In this document: piece after piece, positions 46,161 through 49,916 of the stretch
Numbering within the stretch: the stretch's first letter is position 1
Layout of the letters: each line of letters starts with the position of its first letter
IMG/VR virus record: IMGVR_UViG_3300037504_000213
Location: 1-64,000 of that record
Reading direction: 5' to 3' (one strand)
DNA length: 64,000 nucleotides
Origin: a virus
The notes under the pieces: model-generated
Database searches by the model: none
The model's input: the letters and a program-made list of their open reading frames with translations, nothing else
Told to the model about the DNA's origin: nothing
Translations under genes and position numbers: made by a program

Positions 46161-46439
46161 TTACACATCTTCGTTTTCAGCAGCCAGTTCAACAAGTTTC
46201 TCAGCTGCGTTCATTACCCGCTCGCGGAAATTACCACTTGACCCGCGCCAACACAAGTTGATGTCTTTTGGCTTGACATGATCTGCAAAAAGCTGGATTA
46301 GCATTGTCCTTGCGGTTCCCCTCGACGCGAAAGCAGCCGCCTCAAGGTGTGCTGCGCGGTCATTCGATAGTTGATCGTGTGCAAGCTCTTCATAGTAGAT
46401 CGATGCAGCGTTGATTAAATTCTGTTTGTCAATGTACAT
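46161..46439 (-). CDS. Hypothetical protein downstream of Ro60
   Basis: 92 residues, all helical, with an 11-base overlap with the Ro60 gene, which implies coupled translation. It could be a partner of Ro60, but has no known domain. Confidence 0.5.
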   Translation of the reverse strand: MYIDKQNLINAASIYYEELAHDQLSNDRAAHLEAAAFASRGTARTMLIQLFADHVKPKDINLCWRGSSGNFRERVMNAAEKLVELAAENEDV

Positions 46440-47961
46440 AGTTTCTCTCGCCTACAAAGTTAGAAATCAAACCTGGGACATTGGCATCAAACCCAACAAT
46501 GTCTATCATACCAGGATCGTTGGGATCGGCGATGCTGAACTCTGTCGCTGTGGTGGCAGCAACCAACAGCTTGGCATTGTGAACGCCTGATTGTTCGCGG
46601 TACATCCTGAGGGCATCAGCAGGCACGTACTTGTTGACATTGGTCTCGTTATCTGTGTAAATCACAAATGCGTCGTACAGCAAACCCTTTTCCATTGCCC
46701 AAACCATTGGCATGTCGCATGCCGTTGCGCCGAAATTGAGAGATCGTATCTCTGCGATTATCTCTCCAAGGCTCATTCTGTCATGCAGCTTTAAAGGAAC
46801 AATGTCTTTCGAGAAAGCTATAATATCCCAGTCATCCTCAATGCGCATTGTAATCATAGCCATTGCAGCACTGATTTCCCTGGGTGTAAGGCCACCCCAT
46901 GCGTTATCGAATGTCATGGAGCTTGACACGTCAAGTGCAATGCAAATGCGTTTTCCAGTTGGCTCCACGTTGTCAAACGCAAGGTAAAACATTTCATCAA
47001 GCGCAGATATAATGTGTCCTATTGGATCCCACGAGTTGCTGCCCCTAATGCCCTCTCCGTTGCTGTATGTAACCAACGCCGACAAAACTGTAATGGGGTG
47101 AATGCGTGACCTTATAACAGATGTTCTGTCTGTAAGCATTTTGGCAACACTTCGAACGTTGTCACGAGAATCGAAGTAACCTGATCGGGTGATAGTGCCA
47201 AGGTTTCGAACAATTTCCCAAAGACCCATGTTGGGCATAAGGGCTTCCCAGGCTTCTGAGAATTTCCACAGTTCTCCTGGTACAATTGAGCGAGGGAGGC
47301 CGTATTCTTCAATAATTGCTATGGCCCTGCGTGCATCGTTGGTATCTTTCAGTAGTTCGTACCCCACAGTAAGTTTTGTGTTTGGGTTTTCCTTGCCAAC
47401 GGTCCATCCAAACAGCCTGTCGTGCCATACGCTAGCTGGCTTGACGTGTGCCAGCCTGAGGACATCTCGGTGAGACATGCCACCGCGCTGTCCATACTTT
47501 ACGATTTGGTAGTCAACAGCATCCTTTGTGTTATACCACGCCGCAAAGGCTCGCCGTATCATTCTCCCCCATCCGCGCATATCGTTTATGAAGTTGGCTA
47601 TAGTCAAGAGGTGAGAACCTGTTCTGACTGTTTTGAGGAATGTGCTAACGAAGTCTTCGTGCGCACCAGTGGTTGACACTAGCGCAAGCGCAAATAACGC
47701 TGGATCGTTTGATGGTGCACGCCCGCTATCGCTAATGTCGCCGATTAGCTTAAGCGTTCGTTTGGGATTTTCTCGTGCACACTCAAGTACAACATCTGCA
47801 TTGTCTTCTGTGAGTTTGCTTGAGTTTGCATAATACGTCGAGGCACTTCCTATAATAAGAAAGCGTTCCAAACGTGTCCATTTGTCAACGACATATGACA
47901 TGCCGCCACCATTATTGTGTCTTAAGCCATCCTTATGTCTTTTGCTGTAGTTTCTATACAT
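46429..47961 (-). CDS. rsr: Ro60/TROVE-vWA RNA-binding protein (Rsr-like)
   Basis: 510 residues; the ATG at 47961 follows TTAGGAGAAAC. Residues 20-330 are a TROVE domain (W-T-R-L-E-R-F-L-I-I-G-S-A-S-T-Y-Y, then L-G-T-I-T-R-S-G-Y-F), a ring of helical repeats with a central hole that binds misfolded RNA ends. Residues 335-500 are a vWA domain whose MIDAS is C-I-A-L-D-V-S-S-S-M (D-x-S-x-S). Bacterial Ro60 (Rsr) works with Y RNAs and PNPase in RNA quality control. The gene is preceded by a probable Y RNA. Confidence 0.9.
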   Translation of the reverse strand: MYRNYSKRHKDGLRHNNGGGMSYVVDKWTRLERFLIIGSASTYYANSSKLTEDNADVVLECARENPKRTLKLIGDISDSGRAPSNDPALFALALVSTTGAHEDFVSTFLKTVRTGSHLLTIANFINDMRGWGRMIRRAFAAWYNTKDAVDYQIVKYGQRGGMSHRDVLRLAHVKPASVWHDRLFGWTVGKENPNTKLTVGYELLKDTNDARRAIAIIEEYGLPRSIVPGELWKFSEAWEALMPNMGLWEIVRNLGTITRSGYFDSRDNVRSVAKMLTDRTSVIRSRIHPITVLSALVTYSNGEGIRGSNSWDPIGHIISALDEMFYLAFDNVEPTGKRICIALDVSSSMTFDNAWGGLTPREISAAMAMITMRIEDDWDIIAFSKDIVPLKLHDRMSLGEIIAEIRSLNFGATACDMPMVWAMEKGLLYDAFVIYTDNETNVNKYVPADALRMYREQSGVHNAKLLVAATTATEFSIADPNDPGMIDIVGFDANVPGLISNFVGERNYVH

Positions 47962-47974
47962 AGTTTCTCCTAAC

Positions 47975-48017
47975 AAGCACGGGATGCCATTTGATTCTGG
48001 CATCCCGCTATGTGCTT
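47975..48017 (-). promoter_or_regulatory. Strong hairpin in the Ro60 leader
   Basis: GGGATGCCA (48006-47998) pairs with TGGCATCCC (47989-47981) around an eight-base loop. AAGCAC and GTGCTT extend it after a five-base bulge. It lies just before the ribosome-binding site and downstream of the Y RNA part, and could set the 3' end of the RNA or control translation. Confidence 0.75.
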
Positions 48018-48018
48018 T

Positions 48019-48073
48019 CGGTCAAATCAGTGTGGGTCGAAATTTTCCGAGATAACGAACCACTTCGTACCGT
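48019..48073 (-). ncRNA. Probable Y RNA
   Basis: The RNA would start at 48073, seven bases after the -10 box. CGGU pairs with ACCG, A is bulged, and CGAA pairs with UUUG, giving the Y RNA Ro60-binding stem; a five-base one-sided loop follows, then GUGG/CCAC and UCG/CGA close a large loop. It sits in front of the Ro60 gene, as Y RNA genes often do in bacteria. Confidence 0.65.
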
Positions 48074-48079
48074 ATTTAT

Positions 48080-48107
48080 AGTATAGCATGTTTTGTCGTA
48101 TTGTCAA
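48080..48107 (-). promoter_or_regulatory. Sigma70-like promoter for Y RNA and Ro60
   Basis: TTGACA (48107-48102), 16 bases, TATACT (48085-48080) on the minus strand. The predicted start near 48073 coincides with the 5' strand of the Y RNA stem. Confidence 0.8.
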
Positions 48108-48121
48108 GTATCAATTTGGTA

Positions 48122-48211
48122 TTAATCACCAATATCGCGAAATACGTAAGCGATATAGATTGCAAGGGCCAAAATTGACAGTATTATCACAAATGCGACA
48201 ATTACCGTCAC
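48122..48211 (-). CDS. 29-residue membrane peptide
   Basis: GTG start with GGAG nine bases upstream. The peptide has a single hydrophobic helix (V-A-F-V-I-I-L-S-I-L-A-L-A-I-Y-I-A-Y). It follows the pentapeptide gene by six bases and precedes the Ro60 promoter. Unknown function. Confidence 0.5.
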   Translation of the reverse strand: MTVIVAFVIILSILALAIYIAYVFRDIGD

Positions 48212-49448: not shown

Positions 49449-49916
49449 TTACTTTCCAGTCCATTCGTGGATCCAACAGATATTAGGCAGAGGCCGTAGT
49501 GCCTTTTCCATTACTGGCTTTACAACCTCCCACTCAAGTCCACCGAGTCCACATCCTAACATTGGGAACGCATATTCATGCTGGTGCGCTGTATTTATTG
49601 CCTCGATGAGCTTTACGCAGTACGCAAGGGTTTCTTCTACAAACAACTTTGTGGATTTTTCCCAGTGATTAACCTTGGTTGGCAAGCTGATGAACGGCTT
49701 TGTGATGCCACCATCTGTTGCCACGAGCATCAACACTCGTGCTCTGTCATAGTCTCCAGCACGGCAGTGCAATCTGTGCTGCTTTAGAAGCTCTGGGTAA
49801 CGATCTGCAAACTTTTTGGCAAGTCCAGCGCCCATGACGCCAGACTTGTTTGTCGGAATGACCTGGATAACGTTGATTGGGTGATTAAAAATGCTGTCAT
49901 TGGTGTATTTAATCAT
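49449..49916 (-). CDS. Macrodomain protein (ADP-ribose binding)
   Basis: 155 residues. N-K-S-G-V-M-G-A-G-L-A-K-K-F and F-P-M-L-G-C-G-L-G-G-L-E-W are the two glycine-rich loops of the macrodomain; the latter matches the ALC1/TARG1 or DarG-like type. Such domains bind ADP-ribose and several remove ADP-ribose from DNA or protein, so it may undo host DarT-like defence. The start forms an ATGA overlap with the upstream gene. Confidence 0.8.
   Translation of the reverse strand: MIKYTNDSIFNHPINVIQVIPTNKSGVMGAGLAKKFADRYPELLKQHRLHCRAGDYDRARVLMLVATDGGITKPFISLPTKVNHWEKSTKLFVEETLAYCVKLIEAINTAHQHEYAFPMLGCGLGGLEWEVVKPVMEKALRPLPNICWIHEWTGK

Follow-up and report, generated by a model that had tools for sequence, protein, structure and literature searches.

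The stretch of DNA analysed here, called the window, comprises 64,000 nucleotides of a 76,273-base IMG/VR virus record in which genes for a portal, a terminase, a head protease and a DnaB-like helicase are present. The phage carries six tRNA genes. A DNA similarity search against phages gave no match, and no close DNA relative of the window was found. Our interest lies in a Ro60 gene and its leader, whose features are collected in Table 1. The gene likely starts at the ATG at 47961 rather than at a longer in-frame ATG at 48003, which lies inside a hairpin of the leader. The short ORF overlapping its end is likely to be translationally coupled to it, and searches of Pfam and PHROG returned no match for that ORF, which belongs to no known family. 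Just upstream of the leader promoter lies a small ORF of 29 aa with a GTG start (48122-48211, minus strand), the product of which forms a single hydrophobic helix. A Macro-domain protein (PF01661) is encoded near Ro60 at 49449-49916 on the minus strand and, together with ThyX, dCTP deaminase and a MazG-like protein, marks a region of nucleotide and RNA metabolism.

Table 1. Features of the Ro60 gene and its leader, in window coordinates.
Feature	Position	Strand	Description
92-aa ORF	46161..46439	minus	overlaps end of Ro60 gene
Ro60 gene (TROVE + vWA)	46429..47961	minus	510 aa, intact; Shine-Dalgarno AGGAG 47970-47966
10-bp hairpin CGGGAUGCCA/UGGCAUCCCG	47980..48007	minus	between Y RNA and gene; without a U-run
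Putative Y RNA, 54 nt	48019..48072	minus	from fold and covariance models built without the window
Predicted promoter TTGACA-N16-TATACT, extended -10 (TGC-TATACT)	48080..48107	minus	TTGACA 48107-48102, TATACT 48085-48080

An earlier note on this DNA had described a complete TROVE-vWA gene, and this is borne out by two Pfam domains (TROVE, E 4.4e-24; vWA_Ro60, E 4.6e-59) and by alignment over the whole length to solved Ro proteins: residues 18-503 of the product align with Xenopus Ro (1YVP, E 7.3e-93) and with D. radiodurans Rsr (2NVO, E 1.4e-91). The DxSxS motif of the MIDAS is also present, its residues D344, S346 and S348 being invariant in 17 homologues. By its domains, its MIDAS and its full-length alignment the protein is a member of the Ro60 family, and it is assigned to PHROG 850. 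In mouse Ro60, mutation of H187 abolishes Y RNA binding (PMC11277228); the residue aligned to it in the phage protein, H172, is conserved in the alignment.

The leader promoter agrees with the consensus at 11 of 12 bases. Between 46000 and 50000 there are 12 promoter-like sites (6.3 expected), and it ranks first among them. RNA is predicted to start at about A48073, one base before the 54-nt element (48072), which agrees with the claim of the earlier note that RNA would start right at the 5' strand of a fold. Similar arrangements occur at other Ro60 loci. For instance, a perfect (12/12) TTGACA-N17-TATAAT promoter abuts the Y RNA of L021, as in the window, weaker promoter-like sites end 9 nt before the Y RNAs of L044 and L054, and in L032 a TATAAT stands about as far from the Y RNA. 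Downstream, 57 nt separate the 3' end of the element from the Ro60 start codon. The leader folds as a whole with a z of -4.6, and the 10-bp hairpin within it is a possible processing or attenuation site. A search for an intrinsic terminator in the stretch from the element to the gene found none; polymerase is thus expected to read on into Ro60, in line with co-transcription.

This layout could also be read in another way, namely that the element acts in cis: Ro60 would bind the leader of its own mRNA and tune its own translation or the decay of the leader, with little or no free Y RNA being made. The element is single, the predicted RNA start lies at its 5' end, and the short distance to the gene without a terminator would suit such a role. 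We nevertheless regard a purely cis-acting leader as unlikely, as the tandem copies of relatives, often accompanied by a tRNA-like module, fit trans-acting RNAs better, and so do the copies within tRNA arrays downstream of Ro60.

The element itself has the layout of a Ro60-binding stem, that is, a helix, a single bulged base, a second short helix and a one-sided 3' bulge. CGGU (48072-48069) pairs with ACCG (48022-48019) to form a lower stem of 4 bp, which is followed by the bulged A48068 and by a second helix of CGAA (48067-48064) with UUUG (48026-48023) containing one G-U pair; the one-sided 3' loop is ACUGA (48031-48027; 5 nt). All of these parts had been drawn in the earlier note. Our analysis adds an upper stem of GUGGUUCG (48063-48056) with CGACCCAC (48039-48032), in which 7 of 8 positions are paired and one is a U-C mismatch, and a terminal loop of 16 nt that opens with UUAUC (48055-48051). 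At the loop start the upper stem ends in the motif GUUA[UC]C (GUUAUC, 48056-48051), and the element lies next to the Ro60 gene on the same strand. Folded as an isolated 54-mer, however, the Y fold reaches -12.3 kcal/mol versus -13.1 for a competing hairpin, with a probability of about 0.3. Since the competitor is 0.8 kcal/mol more stable, energy alone cannot prove the Y fold, and it is the comparative evidence that decides.

That evidence comes from a sample of phage Ro60 loci and 80 IMG/VR loci. Long gaps are frequent upstream of phage Ro60 genes, and the repeated elements found there share one architecture: a lower stem, a bulge, CG[AG], an upper stem strand, UUA[UC]C, the other upper stem strand, a linker ending in (C/U)UG and the closing strand of the lower stem. 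A first covariance model, R1, was built from 42 short Y RNA-like elements of other phage Ro60 loci, with the window excluded. These 42 were chosen by a descriptor that demanded base pairs in the upper stem and at columns 3-6, 8 and 9 of the alignment. Columns 1 and 2 played no part in the choice and are nevertheless paired in 36/42 and 39/42 elements, with many two-sided changes. Covariation in the 42 elements exceeds that in all 500 shuffles and in every slid control, the outermost pairs included. The earlier note had held that its reading would fall if the paired strands neither covaried nor were conserved in related phages; we found the opposite, with helices that covary strongly.

Searched against both strands of the 64 kb, R1 gives the window element 26.2 bits (E 2.2e-4; E-values here are rough, model calibration having been short) and the next best match 11.7 bits, making the element the only convincing match. 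Among 92 phage Ro60 loci R1 has 143 matches at E<=1, most of them just upstream of Ro60 and 142 on its strand. A second model, R2, built from these phage matches and again without the window, scores the element at 28.8 bits (E 8.1e-5, equally rough). Furthermore, the phage-only R2 was run on 73 bacterial Ro60 loci, none of which had contributed to it, and found 159 matches, every one on the Ro60 strand. Most of the Ro60 loci examined, in phages and bacteria alike, thus contain Y RNA-like elements of this fold. Since many Y RNAs found by the model escaped a strict regular expression, the lack of a motif match in a single locus was not taken to mean that a Y RNA is absent.

A hairpin arising by chance, or an ordinary regulatory leader with a fortuitous likeness to a Y RNA, has some points in its favour, as a loose fold descriptor gives about 3 chance matches per 64 kb and minimum-energy folding prefers another hairpin. 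Neither point sits well with a model E of about 1e-4 over the window, obtained exactly at the expected place and strand, or with the bulged-A signature described below, and we consider such a coincidence very improbable. An ordinary riboswitch or attenuator was likewise dropped as a candidate given the covariance-model result.

The bulged base is A in the window and C or U in most relatives. Bulged A was found in 7 of the 143 elements, which represent 5 distinct RNAs from loci L083, L055 and L032 (L033 duplicates L032). All seven share the closing U-A pair of the window and have the sequence GGUACG ... UUGACC. The corresponding window sequence is GGUACG ... AUUUGACC, and a six-way alignment shows the GGUACG and UUGACC positions to be invariant. 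Viral contigs scanned for the exact pattern of the element yielded none. The lower stem is 4 bp long in the window versus 6-7 bp or more in most relatives, and this short stem, the mismatch in the upper stem and the competing fold would be expected of a decaying remnant, a formerly functional Y RNA that is losing its stem pairs in a phage that keeps Ro60. A remnant is, in our view, improbable, because the element retains an intact promoter, bulge class, UUAUC and UUGACC strand, and its bulged-A relatives have identical GGUACG and UUGACC strands.

The loop of the phage elements begins with UUAUC in 94 of the 143 and with UUACC in 30. As the covariance model partly rewards the UUA[UC]C motif, it is helpful that a count made without selecting for it, on structure matches from bacterial loci, places the motif at the loop start in 38 of 67 cases, against a background of 1.5%. 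Across bacterial and phage Y RNAs (L101-L174, A3), UUA[UC]C is near-universal at the loop start, which is also the position that UUAUC occupies in vertebrate Y RNAs and nematode sbRNAs. A review terms bacterial Y RNAs non-homologous to animal ones (PMC4726728), and the near-universal motif bears on the question of a common ancestry of the two.

Rfam 15 gave no Y RNA in the leader, either at the gathering score or with E up to 10; its best hits, P31 and snR39, fell far below the cut-off. At the gathering score it also gave none in 18 related phage Ro60 loci (including L003-L019), many of which carry clear, plain Y RNAs; R1 and R2 find them in most. Phage Y RNAs are thereby opened to systematic annotation, as the two models detect them where Rfam 15 has none.

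Many of the related loci hold several Y RNAs each, some with a tRNA-like module. By a strict pattern, this permuted T-arm/D-arm module is present in 40/98 phage loci and 44/80 bacterial loci; a regular-expression search of the 76-kb record outside its tRNAs did not find it. The 16-nt loop of the window element also lacks the inserted T-arm and then D-arm of YrlA-type RNAs. A second Y RNA, sought in the rest of the record (which may be incomplete), gave a best score of 12.1 bits (E 0.2). With no module pattern and no second Y RNA in the record, the window RNA is a minimal, single Y RNA without a tRNA-like module.

Counted against its being a Y RNA are the 4-bp lower stem, the U-C mismatch, the less stable fold and the lack of an Rfam match. 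For it speak the scores of models built without the window, the covariation of the family and the bulged-A signature, and on these sequence-based grounds the identification of the 54-nt leader element as a Y RNA, as the earlier note had proposed, is supported. A guess made by eye has become a testable RNA-protein pair of one 54-nt RNA and one 510-aa protein.

We propose that the Y RNA would be made from its own promoter, with its 5' end at the transcription start, and that transcription would read through into Ro60, the 3' end of the RNA probably arising by trimming or cleavage close to the hairpin downstream. Phage Ro60 would bind the bulged stem and so stabilise the RNA, and the bound Y RNA would act as a gate on the outer surface of the Ro60 ring, where RNA is bound. 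In the infected cell, the ring may then capture structured RNAs that are misfolded or broken and pass them to a host exoribonuclease for repair or decay. A review (PMC4726728) describes how, in D. radiodurans, Rsr is tethered to PNPase by a Y RNA, which also gates the access of RNA. The phage pair probably acts analogously, as an RNP of Ro60 and its Y RNA by which damaged structured RNA is sorted or degraded in the course of infection. Lacking a tRNA-like module, the window RNA is probably a minimal gate rather than a tRNA mimic. Transcription, processing, binding, gating and the role in infection are what we infer, and we hold the explanation as a whole, from Y RNA and promoter through read-through and Ro60 binding to gating and RNA sorting, to be highly probable. 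A combined function is conceivable but doubtful, in which a minimal stand-alone Y RNA, its 5' end being the start of the Ro60 mRNA, would serve as a cis autoregulatory leader and, once released, as a gate of the ring.

Bacterial Y RNAs of Ro60/Rsr loci reportedly include DrY of D. radiodurans and the Yrl RNAs of Salmonella and Mycobacterium smegmatis, said to have been described by Chen and colleagues in 2000, 2013 and 2014, and the 2014 abstract reportedly puts the number of species, bacteria and phages together, above 250. The window RNA resembles such RNAs in its place beside Ro60 on the same strand, its bulged lower stem, its upper stem and its UUA[UC]C loop start, but it is shorter, has a bulged A and a lower stem of only 4 bp, and is without the tRNA-like module. 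Among phages, we found Y RNA-like leaders in those of Mycobacterium, Gordonia, Microbacterium and Streptomyces. Ro60 is phage-borne in mycobacteriophages and these other phages, as in ours, and most of the loci have Y RNAs upstream of it; where ours has one minimal RNA, theirs often number at least two and many carry the permuted T-arm/D-arm module. Chen et al. (2014) are credited in PMC12282133 with reporting Y RNAs from diverse bacteria and from mycobacteriophages. Listeria phage CKA15 has an Rsr-like gene with abundant non-coding RNAs nearby that are suspected to be Y RNAs (PMC12282133, 2025). Both phages thus pair a Ro60 homologue with same-strand candidate Y RNAs; in CKA15 transcripts were seen and the identity of the RNA was left open, whereas in the window the identity is supported by covariation.

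The likeness to human Y1 drawn in the earlier note is one of architecture and of the UUAUC motif, which vertebrate Y RNAs carry in their loop (PMC4726728); no Rfam family was matched. Vertebrate Y RNAs and nematode sbRNAs share with the window RNA a lower stem with one bulge, a one-sided 3' bulge, an upper stem and the loop UUAUC, but differ in being Pol III genes with a bulged C and a longer stem. Phage Y RNA-Ro60 pairs being already known, the window pair is a solid and unusually small new example, distinctive for its single minimal RNA without a tRNA-like module, its bulged A, its short lower stem and its abutting promoter.

Our survey of related loci also offered several minor observations. 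Gordonia phages have Y RNAs among tRNA genes and beside tmRNA genes on the downstream side of Ro60 (L005 4621-4830 and 5372-5430; L008 4822-5453; L013 4960-5602). Taken with the six tRNA genes of our phage, these Y RNAs within tRNA arrays may hint at a connection with tRNA upkeep. Gordonia phage GMA2 also has a Pistol ribozyme match (56.8 bits, L005 4916-4972) within its tRNA array, and Streptomyces phage TunaTartare has a selenocysteine-tRNA-like match (51 bits, L017 808-893) that is unannotated in that phage. Finally, the locus of Mycolicibacterium houstonense (L168) contains identical stretches at 873 and 3285, 2412 bases apart, which suggests a duplication inside or near its Ro60 gene.
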